A DNA stretch of 64,000 nucleotides from Corbicula japonica (Eukaryota; Mollusca; Bivalvia; Venerida; Cyrenidae). A model generated the notes under the pieces. That model was not told where the DNA came from, ran no database searches, and saw nothing but the letters and a program-made list of their open reading frames with translations. This document shows, piece after piece, positions 7,171 to 38,000 of the stretch. The first letter of the stretch is position 1. The number at the start of each line of letters is the position of its first letter. A program made the translations under genes and the position numbers. The stretch is taken from contig JAZAYU010000008.1 of assembly GCA_038501625.1 (NCBI GenBank), positions 12,550,620 through 12,614,619 of the forward strand, in the 5' to 3' direction.

Positions 7171-7690
7171 TACCTTAAGGTTTATGAAGAAATCTTTTCT
7201 GAAAAGAACCTAGAAGCTCGATTTGTCTCTTTTATCCCTGCTATCGTGTTTTGGTGATTTGACCTCAGGACCTCTGGTCTAGGTAAGATCATTGAGTACC
7301 CTCCCCTTTTGCATTGCAATGCTATAAACTTCTTGTGTTTATATGTTTGTGTGATTTTGCATACAACATTGTTGAGCTAATGGGTGGGTTGGAGTTATTT
7401 CACCAAGACAAATCGTACTTGTTTTGTGATACGAGAACCTGTTGGGGCAAGTGTGAGGTTGGTGCACCCTAGAACCTGGTTTAAGCCCCAAGTGGCAATT
7501 TGATTTGCAACTGGCCGTTCCAAGGTGGTATCCCCAAAGGTTCTCTTTTCGTTAATTGTTTATGGCGTCCTATTTGAATTGACATACTTATAACAACATG
7601 CTCTCTTTTCCTCTCTTCTTTTTCTCTGCTTGAGAAGGATGTGTTTTGTGAGTTTGGCGATTCCTGATATGCATATTTCAATTTTCTATT
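7171..7690 (+). mobile_element. Naiad 3' UTR/terminal repeat copy
   Basis: Plus-strand sense copy. It begins with a shortened SECIS-like block (TTTATGAAG...AACCTAGAAGCTCG, 7181-7220, upper stem partly deleted). It continues through GTGAGGTTGGTGCACC, the hairpin AAGTGGCAATTTGATTTG, the CT-rich tract and the end GATTCCTGATATGCATATTTC. It lies immediately before an RT fragment in the same orientation, as in tandem Penelope-like insertions. Confidence 0.8.
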
Positions 7691-7959
7691 GTTTGTTATG
7701 AATATAGAGCATTTTTATAGATGGTTTTTATGATATTTATACTTTATAGACTTGTCATGACCCGAAAGATTTTCTCTCTACTGGATAATATTTATGTAAG
7801 ATTTGGCACCTCTATTTATAAAAAAGTAATCGACATCCCGATGGGTACTAATTGTGCATCCTTTTTTGCTGATTTGTTTTTTTCTGTTATGAAAGAGACT
7901 ATGTTTTCTCTATCTACCAAACATCTCCTTCAGATGCCTTGATGACGTATCACAGTAGA

Positions 7960-8085
7960 TTTGTCTGTACTGTGTGGCCGTAAAACCTCTCCCCGTACTT
8001 TCAATCAATACTGTTATCGTTTCATCCCTCAGGGATTGTATATTACAGTCATTTTTCACATCCCTCCCCACTCAATGAAATACTC
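7960..8085 (+). repeat. SINE-like core copy
   Basis: Shares TGTGTGGCCGTAAAACCTC, CTCCCCGTAC, CAATACTGTTATCGTTTCATC and CCTCAGGGAT with the inverted copy at 26409-26532, and a shorter core with 43428-43490 and 49745-49800. It is probably the 3' domain of a tRNA-derived SINE family (inference from the tRNA-like heads next to the 43.4 kb copies). Confidence 0.6.
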
Positions 8086-8089
8086 TTAT

Positions 8090-8112
8090 GTACCATACTT
8101 ATAACAAACATG

Positions 8113-8159
<47 letters not shown>

Positions 8160-8250
8160 TCTCTTCTTTTTCGCTGCGGGAGGCTGTGTTTTTTGGGGTT
8201 TTTTTTGCGATTTCTGATAAGCATATACATGTATTACTTTTTTATAATCA
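8090..8250 (+). mobile_element. Naiad terminal repeat fragment with (CT)n
   Basis: The blocks ATAACAAACATGCTCTC, a (CT)n run of about 50 bp and GCGATTTCTGATAAGCATAT match the outer end of the Naiad UTR in plus-strand sense. The CT run is the complement of the GA tract seen in minus-strand copies. Confidence 0.75.
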
Positions 8251-8665
8251 TTTTCCATCTCGTGTTCCTATCATTTATCGTAATGAAATCCAGCTTATAA
8301 CACAAACAAAGAAAAGCAAGCAAACGTTATCGATTTAAATCTTTCTATTGAAATTGTTAAGATACTACTTAAATGTATGATAAAAAAGATGGTTTTATTT
8401 TTTTAAGTTTTAAATTATCTGTTTTTAGACAGGGATATTCCTCTTGCAATATTTTACGGGGATCATATCTCAAAACTGGTAGGCTTTTCTAGGGCTTGTA
8501 TTGATGTTAAAGAATTATCGGTATCACAAAGGAAGAAAACCCCTTTTATAGTTGTATTGTCGATACCCATATTTAATTCAAAAATACAGGTGCAGTTAAA
8601 AAAATCCCCATTTCATTAAAGTATTTCACAGCCAGTCTTTGATGACGAGATCCCGACTCATTTGG

Positions 8666-10614: not shown

Positions 10615-11017
10615 TTGTACATTATTCGATTTGTTTCTTTTATCCCTGTCATCGTGTTCTTGCTGATTTTACTCCAGGAGCTCTTGTCTCGGTAAGATCA
10701 TTGAGTACCCGCCCCTTCGGCTTTGCAATGCTCTTAGCTTCTTATGTTTTATATTTTTGTGTGCTTTTGCATGCAACATTGTTGAGCCGATAAGTGGGTT
10801 GGAGTTTTTTCACCAAGACAACTTGTACTTGTTTTGTGATATGAGAACCTGTTTGGGCAAGTGTGAGGTTGGTGCACCCTAGAACCTGGTTTAAACCCCC
10901 AGTGGCAATTTGATTTGCCACTGACCGTTCCAAGGCGGTAACCCCTCGGGTTCTCTTTTTTTGTTTATTGTTAGTGGTGTCTGTTTTGTAACTGATCATC
11001 TTATTAACCATGCTCTC
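10615..11017 (+). mobile_element. Naiad terminal repeat, left arm of an inverted pair
   Basis: Plus-strand sense UTR copy: CTTTTATCCCTGTCATCGTG, TTTGCATGCAACATTGTTG, GTGAGGTTGGTGCACCC, CAGTGGCAATTTGATTTGCC and ATTAACCATGCTCTC. It ends abruptly at 11017, where a copy in the opposite orientation begins. Confidence 0.85.
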
Positions 11018-19709: not shown

Positions 19710-21506
19710 ATGCCAAAGAGTAAACGTTATGAGAGATGGAGTAGTGGTAGTGAAAACGATGATAAATTGAACAATAGCAAATTTTCAAGGCGGGATTTAA
19801 GGGATTGCCACAGTCCTCCCAATCCTATTCATCGATAAAATAAAAATCACCAAATCTCAGTAATGGCAAAATGCCATTCAATGAAACTTTGCATAAATGA
19901 AGGTTACTAATGTATCTTTATTTTGCATACAGTAAGACAACTTAGAAAAGTAAAGAAACAAAGCTAGACCTAAAAATTCCTTGAATTCTATTTACATTAA
20001 TTCACACAAACTAGGCAATGCAGAACATAATTTTAAATTCCCTCGTGAGCGCAATGATACTGACAAGAAAATGTTGTGTACTTTGTAAAAAACGTTCAAC
20101 TATTTAAAGAGAAATCAGTGATTGTCATCCGTTTACGCGACCAGGAAATTGAAGGTCAAACACACTTTTACTAATATCTCGTAAAGTTTACATAAGTAAA
20201 TCATGAGGACACAATAAATTGTTGTCAGTGTTATATTACTCATGTGGGCATTTAAAATGATGTTTTGTGTTCTTTAGTTTTTGTGAATTTATGTAAATAG
20301 AAGTTAAGGGAATTTTTAGATCTCGCTATTTTTCTTTACTTTTCTAATATGTCTTACCATCTGTAAAATAAAGATACATTAATAACATACACTTGTGCAA
20401 AGTTTCATTTAACAGCATTTTGCCGTTATTGAGATTTTGATAATTTTCTTTTTATCGATGAATAGAATTGGGAGGAGTGTGGCAGGCCCTTAACAAAGAA
20501 TGGACAAAGATCTACCTGTGAGGTACCAGTAAGTGAGATTCTAAGTCAGACTTACTCAATATTATATAGTGATCAAACAGACCAAGCCGTTGATAAAAAC
20601 TGCACTAGCTCCCCGAAAATGAAAGGTTCGGCGGTAACACAGAAAGTTCCGACCCCACCGAGGGCTGGTGTGCCTAATACAGAAAGCCAATCAGCGGCAG
20701 GAAGTGACAAAATTGCGTTAGACTTATCAAAGAAACTAGATTCGTTAATAAGTGCAGTTGCTGACTTAAAAAAGGGCCAAGATAGCATGAGATGCAGCTT
20801 TGAGGCAAAAATTGATAATCTTCGCACCGAACTCATTGCAAATATTGACAGTAAGGTGAGAAATTTACGTGACGAGTTGTCAATAGACCTAAATAAAGAG
20901 AACTGTCGAATTGATAGGGTCTTAACTACTATTGAATCATTGCAAACACGCATTGATGCGGTCGAGAGATCACGTATCCCTTCGGGTGATGAAAGTGGAG
21001 CACCTAGTGTAAATACTGGTTTACGTCACCGCCGAGACGATCACCGCGGTTACCAGGGTAATCCGCTAGACGACCCAGATATCACAATTACTGTAAACGG
21101 GGTTCCTGTCACAGAAAACGAGGATTTGATCATAACGGCAAATGAAATAATTGACGCCCTCGGAGATGAGGTTTCATCAAATGTTCTTGTAACAGCATCC
21201 AGGCTAAAAACACGTTTACCCAACAGGCCGGGTCTAGTGAAAATAAGTTTTCAAAATGTGCACGAAAAAATTCTTGTCCTACGAAACAAAATGAATGTAA
21301 AAGATTCCGTTAAATACAAAAATTGTTTCTTGAAGAGCAGTAAATCACACGTAGAGCGTTTAATTGAATTAAATGCCCGTACCATTCTGAGAAATCTACC
21401 TGACGGCAAATCTCTACGAGTGGATGCAAACGGACGCATCAAACAACGTATACAGCATGATCAACAAGATGCCCATCAACAAGATGCCCATCAACAGATG
21501 GAATAG
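19710..21506 (+). pseudogene. LINE ORF1 (coiled-coil RNA-binding protein) split by a MITE
   Basis: ORF1 of a non-LTR retrotransposon. It starts at ATG 19710 (MPKSKRYERWSS), is interrupted after 29 codons by a 689-bp insertion plus a TTAA duplication, and continues from 20494 to a TAG at 21504-21506. Taking out the insertion and one TTAA restores the frame exactly. The protein has a heptad-rich coiled coil (LDSLISAVADLKKGQDSM onward, about 20720-20970). A basic RNA-binding-like domain follows (ASRLKTRLPNRPGLVKISF, about 21190-21430), as in transposase_22/L1-type ORF1 proteins. It ends in a short repeat (HQQDAHQQDAHQQ). ORF1 coats the RNA in the retrotransposition particle. The rest of ORF1 is open, so the MITE may be its only lesion. 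Confidence 0.75.
19801..20489. mobile_element. fold-back MITE with about 220-bp TIRs and TTAA duplication
   Basis: The left arm (GGGATTGCCACAGTCCTCCC onward, to about 20015) is repeated as a diverged reverse complement at about 20275-20489. TTAA lies at 19797-19800 and again at 20490-20493. No ORF. TTAA is the piggyBac-type target, but the end bases GGG...CCC are not the usual piggyBac ones, so the superfamily stays open. Confidence 0.82.
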
Positions 21507-21524
21507 GAATTTTCCCGATCCGAT

Positions 21525-22142
21525 GAAATTTTGAAAGTCGCTCAACTTAATATTTGCGGCTGGACTAGAGAAAATAATGAATTACGCGCAGCAATTATTC
21601 GTTCTATTGACGTCGATATATTTTGTTTATGTGAAACACATCTCGAAGGCCAAGAGTCAATTGATGTGCCTGGGTATGTTTCATAAGGATTTAACCGAGT
21701 GCAGTTACACAGAAATGCCCCAAAACCTTCTGGAGGTGTAGGGATACTTGTTAAACAGAACATTGCTGAGAATTACGCTATTACAATATGTGATAAGAGT
21801 TATGATGGAATACTGGGTATTAAATTCGTATATGAACCAAGTAACTATGAATTTATTTTGTTCAGTGTTTATTTACCCCCTGATAACTCCTCTAGGGGCA
21901 GAGACGCACAAGGATTCTTTACTCATTTACTTTCGCAAATGTATATACATGGTGAGGCGGATGATATCCTAATTTCGGGTGATTTTAACTCACGGATAGG
22001 ATCATTAAGTGACAGTTCTTGTGATATAGATACTTTGCCGGTTAGAAATGTACTAGATAAAAGTATAAATAGCCATGGTCATGACTTTTTGGAATTTCTG
22101 AATGACTCTCGACTCTGTGTACTCAATGGTAGATTTTCCCCT
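21525..22142 (+). pseudogene. LINE ORF2 5' half: APE endonuclease, N-terminal part
   Basis: In the same frame as ORF1 and beginning a few codons after its TAG, this reads KVAQLNICGW, FCLCETHLEG, GGVGILVKQN, LFSVYLPPDN and ILISGDFNSR, the ordered landmarks of an APE-type endonuclease. A TAA at 21684-21686 interrupts it. There is no in-frame ATG between the ORF1 stop and the first conserved motif, so translation would need readthrough or reinitiation at an upstream overlapping codon. The domain is cut at NGRFSPVK by the Naiad insertion and resumes at about 26595. Confidence 0.8.
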
Positions 22143-22314
22143 GTAAAAAGGTGAAATATGCATATCAGGAATCGCCACATTCAGAAAAAACAGCCTCCCC
22201 ACACAGTCAAGAAGAAGAGAGGGGGAGAGAGCATGGTTAATAAAATAATCAGTTTCAAAAAAGACACCACTAACAATAAACAAAAATGAGAACCCGAGGG
22301 GTTACCGCCTTGGA
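22143..22314 (-). repeat. outer, truncated Naiad terminal repeat (pseudo-LTR)
   Basis: Reads AAAAAGGTGAAATATGCATA through GCATGGTTAATAAAATAATC to TTACCGCCTTGG, then stops at the start of a second copy. The purine tract is short (GAAGAAGAGAGGGGGAGAGA). Confidence 0.85.
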
Positions 22315-22389
22315 AAAAAAAGCAACATATGCATATCAGGAATCGCCACACTCAAAAAACACAGCCTCCCCACGCAGCGAAAAAGAAGA

Positions 22390-22391
22390 GA

Positions 22392-22447
<56 letters not shown>
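22390..22447. repeat. (GA)n microsatellite within the Naiad UTR
   Basis: About 28 GA units. The neighbouring outer copy of the same UTR has only a short purine seed at this place. Confidence 0.95.
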
Positions 22448-22831
22448 ATGTTTTATATATGTATGTCAATTCAAATAGGACGCCACAAACAATTAATAAA
22501 CAAGAGAACCTTTGGGGATACCGCCTTGGAACGGTCAGTGGCAAATCAAATTGCCACTGGGGGTTTAAACCAGGTTCTAGGGTGCACCAACCTCACACTT
22601 GCCCCAACAGGTTCTCATATCACAAAACAAGTACAAGTTGTCTTGGTGAAAAGACTCCAACCCACTTATCTGCTTAACAATGTTGCATGCAAAAGCACAC
22701 AAACATATAAAACATAAGAAGCTACTAAGAGCATTGCAAAGCCGAAAGGGGTACTCAATGATCTTACCGAGACCAGAGCTCCTGGAGTAAAATCAGCAAG
22801 AACACGATGACAGGGATAAAAGAAACAAATC

Positions 22832-22883
22832 GAGTTTCTAGGTTCTTTTAAGAAAAGATTTCCCCAATAACCTTCATAAACTC
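22832..22883 (-). promoter_or_regulatory. candidate SECIS element, directly after the stop codon
   Basis: In coding sense the TAA is followed by GAGTTT-ATGA-AGGTTATTGGGG-AAA, about 19 further bases ending AACCT, and then AG-AAACTC. This gives a lower stem (GAGTTT/AAACTC), the ATGA...GA non-Watson-Crick core, an upper stem starting AGGTT/AACCT, and unpaired A residues 12 nt after the core. These are the spacings expected of a eukaryotic SECIS. The lower stem is short and the upper stem needs bulges, so folding should be computed. A SECIS would recruit SBP2 and the Sec-specific elongation factor to decode the five UGAs. Related sequences are at 3964-4015 and 7181-7220. Confidence 0.5.
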
Positions 22884-25800
22884 TTAAACCCCTGCCACCG
22901 TCGTGCAACCAAAGAGGTAAGCATAATGATCAACTGTAGAAGGGTTAATCACCAGGCCTGCAGAGCGCTGTAAAATATCATGTTGGTAACCTTTCTTTTT
23001 AAATTTACAGATGGTTTTTACGAATAACCGGGAGAAATTAACACTGCCTTTAATCTTTTTAAGTTTATAAATGAAATCTCCATAAAAAACTGGTTGTGAA
23101 ATACCTTGTTGCAAAAGTGATTTTAAACTGCATTTGTATTTATGAATTAAATCTGGGTATCGGCGATAAAACTTGCAAAAGGTTTTCCTTAATTTGTGAT
23201 ACCGATAACCTTGTTTTAAGAGTTTTTCTGTAATGCAAAGATTACGTTCATTGAAATCATTAACATTGTTGCAAGCTCTTGAAAAGCGAACAAGCTGTGA
23301 GATATAAACCCCATAAGATATTGCACGGGGAACATCGCCGTCTAAAAACGGAAAATTTACTATATTAAAATTAAAATCATCTCTTTTATCATAACTTTTA
23401 GTAGTGACATAACCATTTTCAATGGATAGATTTAGATCGAGAAAGTTTGCTTGCTTTTCTGAAGTGTTCGCTTTGTTAAGTTGTAGTTCTTTGGGATAAA
23501 TCTTATTAACCAGTAATGGAAAATGGTTATTGTCTATATTTAATAAATCATCAAGGTACCTCGATGTGTTGTTAAAAGCTGTAATTATATCATCTTGATG
23601 TTCAGTAGAAAGAGATAACATAAAGTCTCTTTCATAACAGTATAAAAACAGATCAGCAACAAGGGGTGCACAATTAGTACCCATTGGGATGCCTATTACT
23701 TGTTTATAAATAGAGGTACCGAATCGAACATAAATATTATCCAGTAAGAAAGTTAGCGACTCTATAAGGTCTTGACAAGTCCATAACGTATAATTATCAT
23801 AAGAACAATCTGTAAAAAATGCCCTATGTTCATTACAAGCGATGAAGGTTTGATTTTCTCTAGCAAACGTTTTTTCAATGAGACTGGTTAGTTTGTCTCT
23901 TATTAAATTATGAGGGAGCGAAGTGTATAATGTTGAGAAATCATAAGTAGACAAACAGAACGCCCGAAAATTATTTGATTTAAGCTTTTTCAAAACGTCA
24001 TTTGAATTTTTAATCGACCAAAATAAATTTTTGCCAGAAGTTTCAAAAACCTTATCACAATACCTAATTACGTGTTCTTTTATAGCTGTAAGACAAGATG
24101 TTAAGAGCACGGATAATTTAGTAGTAGTGCAAGAACTAGAGTTAGCAATAAATCTTGCTTTATACGGTGTTTTATGCATTTTAGGTAACCAATACATAGT
24201 AGGTACTTTGTCTTGTTTCGGCTCAATACTGATTCTAAATTTTGTAATTTGTAGAGTGTGTGCAGTAACAATATCACTCTCAGATGAAGAAGTCAGTATA
24301 TAAGCATTAGTGCTGTTCAGTTCTTCAGTTTGAATATTAATATAGTGTATTCGTCACACTATAATTACATTATTAGAAGCCTTATCAGCAGGTGTTAAAA
24401 CAAATCTGTTATGAAAGTCTTGAATTCCTTTTTTCAAATGACGAAAGTTAAAACGAGGTCGAGGTGGTAATAAAGCAATGTTTCTTTCATAAAATGATAT
24501 ACGGGTGTCAATTATTTTGAATATGTGCTTTTTCCAGTTAGAAAGTGCATTAGGCTCGGCATGTTCTCTTTTGCACCATTTATTGCAAAATAAGTTCAAA
24601 GACTCAGCAATTTCTGCACGGCATGCATTAAAGTCAATTTTGGATGATATTCTATATTTGGGACCTTTAGAAATTAAATTACGAATTCTAGAGTCTTTGA
24701 TTAAATTAAGATCACCGGTAACAATATGACCGGCAGGCTTATAGCAATATTTAGAAGTTAAACACTCTCAAGATTTTGGTGTATTTTCAATGATCTGTAA
24801 ATCCGATGTAATTTTATTGTAATTAAAAATAATATTTCTAGTTGGTTTGTTGTATTTATAACAAACCATAGGCGATTCAGTATTCTTAAAATAAATAGGA
24901 ACAGCCGATTGAACTCTTTTATCTTTAAATATACTAGGAAGGTCAATAAAATCTATTCCTTTATTTAAAAAAGAAATTTTAAGGAAATGTCTTTGATGGT
25001 CCGATTCCAAGTCAATATGCGGCCTGAGAACATGCCGAGTATAACACTGAATAAGACTAGCAACCTCGTAAAATGGATGGGTTCTAATGACGATGTCGTC
25101 GGCTTCCTCATCCAGATTCTGCAGACTTGATAAAGAAAGAGAAGCCAACCTAGATAGCATAGCGTGTCTGCCAGATTGTTTTAAAATAATATGTAGGTCA
25201 TGAATAGAACAACGAATACGTGATTTTCTTTTTATGTTTCTATTAGTTCTGCTTCCGTGCGACCTCGATTTTCTTTTACGTATTTCAAGTAATTCAAAGA
25301 CGTCATAATTAGGATTTTTAGAAATGTTGCCTTCTTGATAAATATTATCATTTAAACCAAGTGGGTAAGGAGTTTGTAATTTTTTAATCCATTTCTGCTC
25401 CGAAACGAGCCTGGCCCTGATTTTAAATGCTCTTGAAGCAGTGCTGTCAAATGTAAGATTTTCTACTGGTTGAACGGAAATATTTTGTAAACGGTGTCCT
25501 GAATGCTTAAAGTGTTGGTATAAAAATGTTTTAAATTTGCTGTTGTTTCGAATTTTAGAACAATGTTGTCCAAAACGTGTTTTTAAAGGGCGACCTGTTT
25601 GTCCCACATATTGAATACCACAGTTATTAGAATTTCAAGTTAAAACGTAAACAATATTATCAGTTCGTCAGTCTATATCATTATTAATGTTAACTGAGAA
25701 AGTTCTGCCGTTAACTGTGGATTTAATGATAGAATTACAATTCAAATAATCACAGCATCTGCACCTCTTAGAATTTCACTTGAAAATAGAAGGATAAGGT

Positions 25801-26087
25801 CTGCGTCTTCCGTCATTCAATTTATTTGTTGTAGAAATATCATACTTTCGAAGAATAGGCGATTTTAAAGGTGAAAGAGTAATTTTTAAATTGTTTTTAA
25901 ATAAATTAGTACAATGAACCCTCTGCAGACCTGTCATATTGATTGCCGAAGATAAATTGCGTGATAAACGAACCGAAGGCTGCAGACTTTTAAAAGATTT
26001 AATTTTATGCGGTGTTTGGACAGAAGACGCAGAAGATAGCCTTATTGGAGAAAGATTGATTTTCAATATTTTATTTTGTGCTGCCAT
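22884..26087 (-). CDS. Naiad-type retroelement protein: GIY-YIG endonuclease + reverse transcriptase, with five in-frame UGA (putative Sec)
   Basis: One frame of 1067 codons runs from ATG 26087 (MAAQNKILK) to TAA 22884, with no TAA or TAG inside. Order: a basic N-terminus; a Cys-rich segment (CRCCDYLNC, about residues 107-115); GIY-YIG endonuclease (VYVLT 146-150, GIQYVG 157-162, then GRPLKTRFGQH); a helical middle (CSIHDLHIILKQSGRHA); a linker with the C-x-C motif (440-442); then RT with YWLPKMHKTPYKARFI from 632, motif A YDFSTLYT (715), motif B GIPMGTN (799) and catalytic YLDD (844-847). N-terminal endonuclease plus C-terminal RT is the permuted Naiad order, not the canonical Penelope one. 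UGA codons fall at residues 104, 140, 151, 440 and 578 (25776, 25668, 25635, 24768, 24354). Their contexts FK-U-NSK, DID-U-RTD, VLT-U-NSNNC, KS-U-EC and IIV-U-RR are sites where Cys is expected. If UGA meant stop, the protein would end at residue 103. Multi-Sec Naiads have been reported from clams. Confidence 0.87.
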
Positions 26088-26408
26088 AATGAAATATGTA
26101 GAAAGAATACCATTATATGATCAGCGACTTTAGGTTGCATTGAATTTGTCAAGTGACGTCACAACGTAATACGTGTATAGACAGTAAAGCGCGCTAAACA
26201 CTATATTCTATAAATAGCACGCTGATCAATGTCCATAAATATTAACGTCCTGAATCACTGATCCCAAAGGAATGGGACTGTAAAAAGAGTACTAAAATAC
26301 ACCAAAATGACCAATTCTGGTTCCAGAAAGCGTATAATAATAAATCAATTTAAACGCAACAGAAAGTCGGTGAAAATATAACCTTCAATGTGGTATATAA
26401 TAGTAAAT
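26088..26408 (-). other. Naiad 5' leader
   Basis: Region upstream of the ATG in coding sense. No ORF. Contains AAGTGACGTCAC near 26150 (a CRE-like palindrome, TGACGTCA) and AT-rich DNA. Its boundary with the SINE-like core at 26409 is approximate. Confidence 0.45.
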
Positions 26409-26532
26409 GAGTGAGTGGGGAGGGGGTGTGGAAAGTGAATGTCAAATGTAGTCCCTGAGGGATGAAAAGATAACAGTATTGAATGTAAGTACGGGGAATT
26501 GTTTTACGGCCGCCACACAGCACATACACAAC
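26409..26532 (-). repeat. SINE-like core copy, inverted
   Basis: Reads GAGTGGGGAGGGGG, CCCTGAGGGATGAAAAGATA, ACAGTATTGAATG, GTACGGGGA and TTTTACGGCCGCCACACAG, the reverse complement of the block at 7960-8085. In both places it adjoins a Naiad terminal repeat. Confidence 0.6.
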
Positions 26533-26540
26533 TACTGTGA

Positions 26541-26594
26541 TTATAAAAAGGTGAAATATGCATATCAGGAATCGCCACATTCAGAAAAAACAGC
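26541..26594 (-). repeat. Naiad terminal repeat fragment at the far end
   Basis: AAAAAGGTGAAATATGCATA and the following text to AAAAAACAGC are identical to 22143-22191. This is the other boundary of the nested insertion. Confidence 0.85.
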
Positions 26595-29443
26595 ATCAGT
26601 ATCGCGAAAAGGGAAATCGGTAGTAGACTATATTTGCATACCTCATGACAATTTAAAAAAGTACAAAGACTTTGCGGTATTAACAGTTAGTTCTATAGTT
26701 GATCAGCATAACTTGCATGGATATATTGGTGAGCGGTCCAGGCTACCCGCTCACAATGTACTATTAACCGAGTTTACGATGACGTCAGTTGAACATAACG
26801 GTTTAAATGGCCATTCTAGTCGGGATAGTACTCGCCATAGATTTAAATTGAATAGAATACCTGCCGATTTTATGGAAAGTGAGCTTTCTAGGTACGCAAT
26901 TCATGAAATAATAGAGCGCATTGAACAATGTAGGGAAACATAAAATTATATTGACTCAATATATGAGAAACTATGTGACGTCATTCTTAATGAAATGAAT
27001 GTTAAACTTTCAAAATATAGTTCTTCACATTCAACTAATAAACGCTAAAAAATAGAAAACCCTATTGGGACGAGAACTTATCTGAGCTTTGGAACGATAT
27101 GCGTAAAAAAGAGCAGGATTTCATTAAATGCAGTGGAAGTAGACGCTTAAAATTGAGGTTGCACGAAAAATATACGCATGCAAGGGATATTTTTGACAAA
27201 ACGTTGAAAAATTATGAACGTAAATATAGACAAAACGTTTGTGCAGAAATCGAAGAAATGTCTACTGATAACCCGAAGGATTTCTGGGATAAAATTAAAA
27301 CACTGGGCCCGAGAAAGAGCAATACTATACCCGTCGAAATTATAGATAACCAGGGTAATATAACAAGAAATGAAAATGAAGTCTTCGAGCGATGGAAAAC
27401 TGATTTTGAAAAACTGTATAATTGTACAGATCAGGGTGAATTTGACCAGAGATTTTATAATGATGTAAAAACTCATAAACAATTACTAGAGGAGGCGATG
27501 CTTGACCCTTGATATGAAACAAACACTTATTTAAATATAAATATAAGCATAGAGGAAATAACACGGGTGGTAATGAACGCAAAATCGCATTCGGCCAGTG
27601 GATACGACCAAATCCCGTACACTGTGTTAAAATTTCCTGCGGTTATATGTGCTATTCATCAGCTGTTTCAACTGATATTTGACTCATCTTTGATTCCGTC
27701 TGTGTGGAGGAAGTCAGTCATATGCCCGATCCTTAAAGACAGTTCATCTGACCCAAGAATTCCCATGAACTATCGCGGCATTAGTCTCCTCTCGTGTCTT
27801 AATAAACTGTACACTTCCTTTATGAACAAACGTCTCATTAAATATCTCGAAAATGAGCACATTCTTGCTGATGAGCAAAATGGATTTCGGCCTGACCGAT
27901 CTTGTCAAGACCACATTTTTACATTGAACAGTGTTATAAGAAATAATTCACAAGTGTTCACCAGTTTCATAGACCTACGGAAATGCTTTGATTTTATCGA
28001 TAGATATATCATGTTATACAAACTCTTGTTAAATAAAGTAGACGGGAAAATGTATAAGTCAATTAAAACTATTTATCAACATACCTCTTCATGTGTGAGA
28101 ATTAATGGGAAATACACCGAGTGGTTCAACTGTAAATCCGGGGTGAAACAAGGGGATAATATTTCGCCGACAATATTTTCCATTTTCGTAAACGACCTTG
28201 TACAAGAAGTGAATGATCTCAACCTGGGAGTTGACATCGGGGGCTCGAAACTATCGATACTGCTTTATGCGGATGACATCGTTCTGATCTCCAGCTCAGC
28301 GCAAGATTTGCAACAAATGCTCAACGTATTGCATAACTGGTGTAAAAAATGGAAAGTTCTTATAAATACAGACAAATCAAAATGTGTCCATTTTCGCAAT
28401 AAATACCACAGACTGATCATCAGTTTTTAATTGGTTTAAATGTCCTAGAAACCGTTAAAACATATAAATATTTAGGTGTTATTTTTCATTGTAATGGAGA
28501 TTTCTCCGCTTACTGCGATGTGCTGTCGAAAGCTGCAGGTAGAGCGCTGGGAAAAATTATATCAAAACTACATTCACTGAAAGACTTTGGATTTAAATCG
28601 TTTGAAAAACTGTTCAACGCATGTGTTGTCCCGATCTTAGATTACAGTGCAGGGGTCTGGGGCCTTAAAAGGTACCAATCGATTGACAATGTTCAAAACC
28701 GTGCCATGCGTTATTTTTTAGGGGTCCATAGGTTCGCACCTACTCTTGCGATAATTGGAGATACTGGTTGGATTCCCGCATATTACCGTCGGTGGATATC
28801 CGTTATTCGCCTCTGGAATAGACTGTGTACTCTCAACGATAACAGAATAACTAAGAAAGCTTTTAATCTTGATTATCAAAATCAACCACTTATTAAAAAT
28901 TGGTGCACTGATTTTAAAGCAATACTTCAAATACTAGACTTAAGTATACATTTTGACAATAAATCAGTTATAAGTATGGTTACCGCGAATAGTAAAATAA
29001 CAGATCATTATTCTAGTATTTGGAGTGCTGATATTACTAAAGTGTCAAAACTTAGAACATATGTGACATTTAAAAGTATATTTAAAACAGAAGATTATTT
29101 ACTAATCAATCTTAAGAAAAATGATCGCTCTTTGTTAGCTCAATTTAGATGTGGAGTCCTCCCATTGAGAATTGAAACTGGACGATATGTAGGTGAGGCT
29201 GTGGAAAATAGACTGTGTTTATTATGTGATGAACATCTAGTTGAAAATGAAAGTCACTTTTTAATATCCTAGAAATATTATGAAAACCTGAGAAGAGACT
29301 GTTTGATAAATATATTATATAACCATGCTAACCAACCTGCAGATAGACAGTTGTGTGTTTTAGTACAAAATCACCCAAGGCAACTTGCAAAATATCTTAC
29401 AAAAGCCTACTTAAAAAGAAGAAATTATTTGTTTAGAAACTGA
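26595..29443 (+). pseudogene. LINE ORF2 3' part: end of APE domain, reverse transcriptase, C-terminal zinc-knuckle region
   Basis: Resumes the interrupted ORF2 with SVSRKGKSVVDYICIP and LPAHN (the final APE motif is usually PDH). It passes through a spacer and gives an RT with PVWRKS-type fingers (27700), NYRGISLLS, FTSFIDLRKCFDF (motif A), GVKQGDNISPTIFSIF (motif B) and LLYADDIVLIS (motif C, 28263-28295). A thumb/connection region (YKYLGVIF, LSKAAGRALGK) and a C-terminal RCGVLPLRIE...CLLC...ESHF knuckle follow. Lesions: TAA 26941, TAA near 27046 with a frame shift, TGA 27510, a frame shift near 28420, and TAG 29270 replacing a knuckle Cys. The frame ends at TGA 29441-29443. It is an APE-type LINE, clade not determined. 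RT copies the element's RNA into nicked DNA. Confidence 0.85.
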
Positions 29444-35000: not shown

Positions 35001-38000
35001 CTGTATCAGCGCGGGAATATATCTTCCCTAAGTATGCAATCATTTTGCCTGTATCAGCGCGTAAATGTATCTCCTCCAAGTATGCAACCATCATGCCTGT
35101 ATCAGCGCGGGAATGTATCTCCCCCCAAGTATGCAATCATCTTGCCTGTATCAGCGCGTGAATGTTTGTCCCCCCAAGTAGGCAATCATCTTGCCTGTAT
35201 CAGCGCGTGAATGTATCTCCCCCAAGTATGCAACCATCATGCCTGTATCAGCGCGGGAATGTATCTCCCCCAAGTATGCAATCATCTTGCCTGTATCAGC
35301 GCGTGAATGTTTGTCCCCCAAGTAGGCAATCATCTTGCCTGTATCAGCGCGTGAATGTATCTCCCCCAAGTATGCAACCATCATGCCTGTATCAGCGCGG
35401 GAATGTATCTCCCCCAAGTATGCAATCATCTTGCCTGTATCAGCGCGTGAATGTTTGTCCCCCAAGTAGGCAATCATCTTGCCTGTATCAGCGCGTGAAT
35501 GTATCTCCCTCAAGTATGTAATCATCTTGCCTGTATCGGCGCGTGAATGTTTATCCCCCAAGTATGTAATCATCGTGCCTGTATCGGCGCGTGAATGTAT
35601 CTCCCTCAAGTATGCAATCATCTTGCCTGTATCGGCGCGTGAAAAAAGTATCTCCGTCAAGTATGCAATCATCCTGCCTGTATCAGTGCGTGAAATTATC
35701 TCCCCCAAGTATGCAACCATCTTGCCTGTATCAGCGCGCGAATGTATCTCCCTCAAGTATGCAATCATCCTGCCAGGAACAGCGCGTGAATGTTTCTCCA
35801 CCATGTATGCAATCATCTTGCCAGGAACCGCGCGTGAATGTCTCCCTCAAGTATGCAATCATCTTGCCAGTATTAGCGCGTGAATGTATCTCCCTCATAT
35901 ATGCAATCACCTTGCCTGTATCAGCGCGTGAAATTATCTCTATCAAGTGTGCAATTATCTTGCCTTTACCAGCGCGTAAATGTATCTCCCCCAAGTATGC
36001 AACCATTTTGCTTGCATCAGCGCGTGAATGTATCTCCCTCAAATATGCAATTATCTAACCTGTATTAGCGCATAACTGTTTCTCTCCCAAGTATGCAATC
36101 ACCTTGCCTGTATCAGCGCGTGAAAGGATCTCTCTCAAGTGTGCAATCATCTTGCCTGTATCAGCGCATAAATGTATCTCTACAAGTAACCGATCATCTT
36201 GCCGGAATCAGCGCGTAAATGAAACTCCCCAAGTATGCAATCATCTTGTCTGTATCAGCGCGTGAATGTATATCACGCATGTATGCAATCATCTTTTCTC
36301 CCAAGTATACAGTCATCTTGTTAATTCAGCGAGTAATTATATTTTCCTTAAGTATGTAATCATCCTGCCTGTATCAGCACGTGAATGTATCGCCCCCAAG
36401 TATGCAATCATCTCGCCTTTATATGCACGTGAATATACAATTATCTTGTCTGCATCAGCGCGTGAATGTATCTCATTGGCAAAAAGCCGCTGACCGCTAA
36501 AAAGATCTTTTAGTACATGTATATATTTTAAAATATTTTTACGTATGGATTCAATTAAGAGAGAGCCGGTGGACTACGAGGAGGCTGAGCTTGCATGCAT
36601 ATTGTCATATTACAACCAAGAGTCCGAGCCCCGAGAACTCACGGAAGCAGATGTTACGTTTTTCCAAAGACGCCAGGATCAAAGGTAAGAGCTTCTCATG
36701 TGGCGATGTTTGCACAGAAAATGAAAACATGCATATGATAACAACACAAAATAAGAAAAAAAGATTTCAACGTCTTTAATATTTATTACAATTGGCAACA
36801 TATCGTTCCAGTTTCTTTGATTTTTAGATACCTCTTAAACTCTAATCATGATTGAAATAAAACGCAACGTTTCGCAATTCACGAGACGTTACGAGATGTT
36901 GTAATAAGAGTTTCTTGTCACTACAGCGATAAATTTTTCTCTCACTTTTTTTTAAATTGTAAGAACGTACTTCTTAGCGGTTTCTTAGCCATGTGTACCC
37001 TGTTACTTTACTGCTCATCAGTGAGTCACTGGGGATCCGTGACCACTTTTCATAACCCTGAAAAATTTGTTCAGATTGATTCATTGCAAAGAAAACGGTT
37101 TGTGGATTTAAATTTTGTTTATACACATTCGTCGGCTAAATTTAACAGATAAGCACTGTAAGAACAAAACACTTTTCCCATATTTTATAATTAGCTTATT
37201 TGTTACCATATATATATATTCAAATGTAACCACAAGTGTAATTTTCTATTTAATATTTTATTCCAGATTCGGGTACTTCCCTCCAGAAAGCGGGTTTCGA
37301 ACACGGCGAGAAGTGAGAACGCTGTCAGAGGAGGAATGGGAGCGTTTTGTTACTGTTGTACAAACAATGTATAGGGTACATATACTATTTTAGATCAATC
37401 GAACTGTACAGTATTTAAAAGAAATTACATTAATTGGTGCCCATATCGAAAGAAACTTATAATAAATGTACACTCACGGCGAGAATTCGCTATTCGCTTT
37501 TTTCTTAGCATGTCTTATTCCGCCCGTTCAAGTCATGTCAGTTGTCAAAATGTTGTTAACAACCAGTTTCAGATTCATGTATTCCTTTAAATTATTTATG
37601 CTCTAATGAAAAAGCCTTAATTTCTTTCAATGAAGAACATATCTGAATAAATATTAAAACTAATCAGTCAATAAATTTCAAACCTTGAAAATTTTTGAAG
37701 TCGACTTTTCTAAAACTTATGAAATACCACCTGATAGAAAACGGTTCGTTTTTAGTTTATTATGCTATTTTTGACTAAATAAAGGTAAATATTTTAAGAC
37801 TTACATTAACTTTTAACGTCATTAAACGCTTTTTAAATGTGACTGTCTTAAATATAGGAAGGGACACTGCACCGTTTTGGACGGCTGCATGGACAATGCG
37901 GTAAGAATGTTCATAAAGGGGCCGCATTTCTACCTTGGCATAGAGTTTTCATATTAGAGTAAGTACCTTAGTCATACGTTAAATCATTCTGTTACAGCAT

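Follow-up and report, generated by a model that had tools for sequence, protein, structure and literature searches.

Naiad-type Penelope-like elements are characterized by an N-terminal GIY-YIG endonuclease, a CxC linker, a C-terminal reverse transcriptase (RT) and a CCHH cluster, by pseudo-LTRs and tandem units, by the lack of a canonical hammerhead ribozyme, by an insertion-in-fingers domain and by an insertion bias towards microsatellites. Animal selenoproteins with more than one selenocysteine (Sec), e.g., selenoprotein P, display several UGA codons in one frame, a SECIS after the stop codon and Cys at the same positions in homologues. Selenocysteine-encoding Naiad elements have reportedly been described in clams and spiders, by Craig, Yushenova, Rodriguez and Arkhipova in 2021 in Mol Biol Evol 38:5005. 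A search of one open-access library, outside which that report lies, returned no paper joining Penelope-like elements with selenocysteine or selenoproteins. Regarding canonical Penelope/Poseidon elements, the excerpted account (PMC11167929) describes RT and a C-terminal GIY-YIG domain in one ORF, a hammerhead ribozyme and tandem units giving rise to pseudo-LTRs.

The element analyzed here is located in the window, i.e., the whole 64-kb stretch of DNA under study, which lies in a host genome of 1.07 Gb (G000). Its features are as follows.

22150..26597, minus strand: whole insertion, from a BLASTN search of the window with the 4190-bp unit found in tandem on contig C262, and from repeats
22884..26087, minus strand: single ORF of 1067 codons plus TAA, from reading-frame translation
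25776..25778, minus strand: UGA codon 104, in the window copy only; a Cys codon in 50 of 52 copies read
25668..25670, minus strand: UGA codon 140, family-wide, in 51 of 52 copies (AGA in L055)
25635..25637, minus strand: UGA codon 151, family-wide, in 52 of 52 copies
25509..25655, minus strand: GIY-YIG endonuclease domain (Pfam PF01541), residues 145-193, with ligand columns U151, C156, H175 and H192 kept in relatives
24768..24770, minus strand: UGA codon 440, first position of CxC, family-wide, in 52 of 52 copies
24354..24356, minus strand: UGA codon 578, just N-terminal of the RT core, family-wide, in 52 of 52 copies
23547..23945, minus strand: RT motifs from YDFSTLY (715) to YLDD (844-847), from motif positions
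22818..22885, minus strand: candidate SECIS, with AUGA at 22877-22874, AAA at 22861-22859, a 6-bp apical hairpin and CGAU at 22832-22829
22150..22883, minus strand: 3' UTR, whose end is duplicated in the window copy and which there contains an (AG)n tract at 22387-22446, from repeats and alignment

On the minus strand, one frame extends from ATG to TAA between window positions 26087 and 22884, with no TAA or TAG inside its 1067 codons and with TGA at codons 104, 140, 151, 440, and 578 in this copy, which confirms the frame given in the preliminary description; stops occur throughout the plus strand over 22884-26087. The GIY-YIG domain at residues 145-193 was detected with Pfam at E = 1e-4 and 23.0 bits, barely over the cut-off of 22.6, and the motifs VYVLT and VGQTGR begin at residues 146 and 161. 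No RT family was matched at E up to 1 in the Pfam search of the 1067-residue protein, therefore the RT is recognized from alignment with relatives and from its motifs, YDFSTLY at 715, GIPMGTN at 799, and YLDD at 844, which are signatures of RTs. A PDB sequence search with the element protein gave no match. The nuclease precedes the RT within the single ORF (GIY-YIG at 145-193, RT motifs at 715-847), in line with the earlier proposal of a permuted, near-intact Penelope-like element that needs UGA as an amino acid.

It can be observed that this design is that of Naiad: the N-terminal GIY-YIG domain, the CxC linker, the C-terminal RT and the CCHH nuclease cluster are all shared, as are multiple in-frame UGA codons at Cys positions. 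Tandem pseudo-LTR units are a further likeness. Three head-to-tail units are spaced at 4190 bp on contig C262, and the insertion in the window is composed of a 48-nt piece of its own 3' end (26597-26550, a pseudo-LTR remnant) followed by a unit from 26549 (5') to 22150 (3'). No Rfam hammerhead was matched at E up to 10 between positions 20 and 29 kb of the window, as in Naiad, and the element is not known to differ from Naiad in principle. RT and GIY-YIG in a single ORF and tandem units with pseudo-LTRs are shared with canonical Penelope/Poseidon elements; however, the excerpted account of these gives a C-terminal nuclease together with a hammerhead, whereas the present element has its nuclease at the N-terminus and no hammerhead among the matches listed. 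The likeness to proteins of the selenoprotein P kind lies in several UGA codons per frame, a SECIS form past the stop and Cys in homologues; the element differs in being presumably mobile rather than a host gene, and in a SECIS core only 6 nt from the stop. Since the design is that of Naiad and Sec-encoding Naiads have reportedly been published already, the element is placed in a known kind, of which it is a well-supported new member, with selection measured past each of four UGA codons.

The sequences are best read as those of a young, abundant, multicopy Naiad-type Penelope-like element, nearly intact in the window, that would encode a four-Sec protein. With a probability of roughly 0.88, it is a recently active retrotransposon whose one protein is a selenoprotein, with Sec inserted at UGA140, UGA151, UGA440, and UGA578 by means of a 3' SECIS. 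In the proposed process, the SECIS hairpin beginning 6 nt past the stop would firstly recruit host SECIS-binding factors and tRNA-Sec(UCA). Subsequently, ribosomes would insert Sec at the four UGA codons, yielding the whole 1067-residue protein, in which each Sec would replace one Cys of a conserved cluster: residue 140 in a C4 cluster (104/109/112/140), 151 in the CCHH cluster (151/156/175/192), 440 in CxC (440/442), and 578 ahead of the RT core. Such clusters may act as metal ligands. Finally, the element would copy itself as tandem 4190-bp units.

The state of each UGA codon was compared over genomic copies. Forty-three copies, the best-scoring of 36159 first-look candidates and thus a sample that favours intact copies, were read in G000. 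UGA was present at 140, 151, 440, and 578 in 43 of 43; nine further copies had TGA at 151, 440, and 578 in 9/9 and at 140 in 8/9, L055 carrying AGA. No TAA or TAG occurred before codon 1040 in 35 of the 43, and exactly four TGA with no other stop were found in 30, among them L023, which ends 11 codons early. With a second query (codons about 8-622 only) exactly four TGA were observed at 70 of 73 places, and with a third at 46 of 46, the place lists of both overlapping with that of the 43 copies. This third query was the all-Cys relative P0003, and even so no Cys-type copy appeared among the 46 scored.

Codon 104 behaves differently. Five recoded UGA codons had been proposed, with TGA versus TGC/TGT over genomic copies as the check; the proposal stands for the four family-wide codons and fails for codon 104, which among the 43 copies is TGC in 41, AGC in one and TGA in the window copy only, and TGC in 9/9 of the further copies. 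On the sequence evidence, the number of recoded UGA codons is four, not five. It is very unlikely that all five, including 104, are selected Sec codons: all but one of 21 relatives have Cys at column 104, as such a reading would have it, but TGA104 occurs in one of 52 copies, and the one Cys-to-TGA event seen equals the neutral expectation (1.1 over 43 copies). UGA104 therefore looks like decay, a private mutation of the window copy, and a set of five selected UGA codons was rejected on account of TGC at this position in nearly all other copies. Given a functional SECIS on the transcript, UGA104 might still be read as Sec, but nothing points to selection on it.

Selection on the frame was then evaluated from the variants among the 43 copies, for which the neutral expectation over all variants is 73 synonymous to 233 nonsynonymous to 18.7 stops. 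Single-base codon variants confined to one copy comprised 88 synonymous, 139 nonsynonymous and 15 stops, while those common to several copies comprised 56 synonymous, 28 nonsynonymous and 0 stops. This pattern implies that copies decay once inserted and that self-copying lineages are under purifying selection. The private stops (TAA 7, TAG 3, TGA 5) match the expectation for decay, and the only stops held in common are the four family UGA codons, which is the outcome of the refuting check set in the preliminary description (TAA/TAG as frequent as UGA in genomic copies). It should be noted that UGA conservation in near-identical copies was not taken as proof, as only 1.26 neutral losses of the four TGA are expected over the 43 copies. 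Even at subfamily distance all four TGA were kept in 437 of 2000 simulations; TGA retention alone is thus weak evidence, and the argument is based on the diverged subfamily instead.

This subfamily, L051-L054, has 87-88% amino-acid identity (about 12% different) and the same four UGA codons. Between L010 and L053, Ks is 0.52, Ka 0.060 and Ka/Ks 0.12. The 1062 codons contain no new stop, against an expectation of 15.2 TAA/TAG and 4.3 TGA (19.5) without constraint, and none of 2000 simulated unconstrained frames at this distance was free of TAA/TAG. Upstream, Ka/Ks is 0.25 for codons 1-103 and 0.12 for 104-139; it is then 0.23 for 141-150 (few sites), 0.09 for 152-439, 0.08 for 441-577, 0.05 for 579-800, and 0.05 for 801-1067. 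Low values in every stretch after a UGA indicate that translation must go past each of them. We give next to no credence to a dead or dying family in which the UGA codons are old nonsense mutations propagated by copying. Individual copies do decay, with 15 single-copy stops seen against 18.7 expected, but such a family is contradicted by the 56:28:0 proportions of shared variants, by Ka/Ks of 0.12 at Ks of 0.52 with no further stop and selection beyond each UGA, and by the confinement of UGA to Cys columns. Along the same pair of copies, Ks is about 0.9 over codons 152-439 and only 0.18 over 801-1067, a drop that gives the two subfamilies the look of mosaics with a common younger 3' half.

Selection on every stretch would also be expected if the pieces between the UGA codons were made as separate proteins from internal starts without recoding, and many database proteins do have their start shortly past 578 or their end at 577, although gene callers produce the same ends at a stop. 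Nevertheless, this is scarcely credible: the stretch between UGA140 and UGA151 is only ten codons long, separate proteins would divide both the CxC and the C4 cluster, and full-length relatives with Cys exist as one protein (P0003, 999 aa).

The residues expected at the UGA positions were established by alignment of 32 relatives to the element protein. Cys was found in 20/21 relatives at column 104, 22/24 at 140, 23/24 at 151, 30/32 at 440, and 30/32 at 578, bearing out the prediction of the preliminary description that every UGA sits where Cys is expected. The exceptions are His once (P0023, column 104) and otherwise Trp in P0002, P0010, and P0012. In the CxC linker, column 440, UGA in the element, is accompanied by column 442 with Cys in 32/32, and the other ligand columns of the nuclease next to C151 (23/24) are C156 in 24/24, H175 in 25/25, and H192 in 24/24. 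Nine of the 1067 columns carry Cys in 85% or more of the relatives, counting columns covered by 20 relatives or more; the chance that random codons all fall in these nine is 1.1e-11 for five codons and 2.3e-9 for four. Other Trp residues of P0002 and P0010 are located mostly in Trp or aromatic columns, bar one in P0010; for this reason, their Trp at UGA columns was taken as TGA called with table 4. The Trp of P0012 at column 140, which lies among Cys relatives, may be a true Trp and was left out of the UGA count.

Further relatives reveal the state of position 578. Among relatives of P0010, 18 of 33 stop exactly at residue 577, with Cys at 440. For the RT half, 8000 candidates were scored and 3684 relatives found; among the 120 listed, 102 start after 578 and 18 cross it, with C in 12, W in 5 and L in 1. 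Ends at 577 and starts after 578 are what gene callers halting at UGA578 would produce, thus UGA is presumed there. It should also be noted that these counts are not natural frequencies, since unbroken frames are favoured in the protein database and lengths are bounded by the query. In a tree built from residues 158-577 of 59 rows (midpoint-rooted for drawing only), 26 rows form one clade with support 100/100. Of this clade, 18 rows end at 577, three have W at 578, the window protein has UGA there and 4 rows lack a clear state; the 33 rows outside it have Cys at 578 or no data. W/UGA at 440 is found twice in the clade, in P0001/P0002/P0048 and in P0010/P0037, with Cys rows around both. The occurrence of C, W and UGA at 578 in fairly close relatives suggests that Sec and Cys swap at this site. 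Cys at 578 in some close relatives (12 of the 18 listed that cross it) is also a point against the Sec reading. It is possible, although doubtful, that Sec was adopted site by site, one ligand per cluster at four of the nine invariant Cys, and that selenium supply gates retrotransposition, a stop at 578 giving a nuclease without RT. If so, the full nuclease-RT protein would need four Sec insertions, hence the gating by selenium.

As to the distribution of relatives, seven gene models of Pinctada imbricata with short P0010-like pieces (54-91% identity over 8-22%) were among the matches listed. Two RT-half matches were in MAGs named Candidatus Thiodiazotropha, symbionts of lucinid clams, and the matches presumably represent host DNA. 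No relatives were found in the viral_contigs and genome_contigs collections.

The 3' UTR was inspected for a SECIS. From 6 nt past the stop, a hairpin of SECIS form is present, with AUGA, a helix of 9 standard pairs in 10 positions, AAA, an apical hairpin and CGAU. A strict scan for this form gave a single match over both strands of the 64 kb, 5 matches in 2000 shuffles of the 3' UTR and 1 in 5000 of its first 90 nt, for general SECIS features from the literature and limits that were chosen after this hairpin had been seen. The core letters were preserved in 51 of the 53 matches obtained in the loci (window copy counted twice). The Rfam model SECIS_1 scored 20.2 bits, below the gathering cut-off of 35, and no Rfam family exceeded its cut-off in the window; the E value of 4.9, which refers to 4227 families and 9 kb of sequence, becomes about 0.001 when divided down to one family. 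Scores were 20.2 bits (twice) for L010 and 19.5 for L053, and a match at E up to 10 was listed for one of six other loci (L026). Plain folding of the region was no better than for shuffles (z 0.22), and in the window copy the SECIS form (-7.1 kcal/mol) is not the minimum-energy fold, the best competing fold being at -14.0 kcal/mol. The gap is narrower in the subfamily, with -7.4 kcal/mol for the SECIS form against -9.2. Non-standard pairs of a SECIS core are not counted in such folding energies. In 12 near-identical sequences, with too little variation, covariation gave scores as high in 418 of 500 shuffles. Separately, the 3' end at window positions 22150-22531 is duplicated at 81-85% identity with the (AG)n tract, unlike in 20 other aligned copies, perhaps through template switching to an older relative.

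The low Rfam score and the unfavourable fold leave some room for a near-cognate tRNA, e.g., Trp, Arg or Cys, reading the UGA codons without SECIS or Sec. The bases after UGA140, UGA151, UGA440, and UGA578 are C, A, G, and C, and UGA-C is a leaky readthrough context. This reading is nonetheless improbable: four such events in series would be reasoned to yield very little full protein, and the position of all four UGA codons in invariant Cys columns is predicted by Sec, not by Trp or Arg. Moreover, the SECIS form adjoins the stop, and Sec machinery is encoded in the genome.

As to that machinery, tRNA-Sec was detected in G000 at four places at 78.8 bits (cut-off 47), with anticodon UCA in the one place read; 5 of 14 control genomes were over the cut-off. 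SepSecS gave seven exon-like matches in an 8.4-kb stretch of contig C7, each above the cut-off, and matched in 3 of 14 controls. At G000:C6:5707433-5733948, weak matches to the tRNA-Sec model recur every ~2403 bp below the cut-off, a series that is probably a tandem array with another tRNA.

A high-copy, putatively Sec-dependent element of this kind offers tens of near-identical copies together with diverged subfamilies for studying the decoding of multiple UGA codons, and allows one to ask why mobile DNA keeps Sec at Cys sites resembling metal ligands. It is also a warning for gene finders, which cut such an element apart at every UGA, to judge from the database fragments with an end at 577 or a start past 578.

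Regarding the neighbourhood, and with it the insertion bias of Naiad towards microsatellites, this copy interrupts a LINE (labelled as such by inspection) with plus-strand reading frames at 20466-29272. The coding sequence of the LINE is broken into several frames. A relative of the element on the minus strand at window positions 5165-4019 is decayed, with frame shifts as well as TAA and TAG, but TGA still occupies both columns 140 and 151, and its C-terminus is followed by a SECIS-like stretch. More relic pieces of the same family are located on the plus strand at 7177-7240, 7688-8596, and 10626-10651. Finally, an open frame of 231 codons on the minus strand at 35151-35846, in which one motif recurs (HSRADTGKMIAYLGE...), is probably a tandem repeat.
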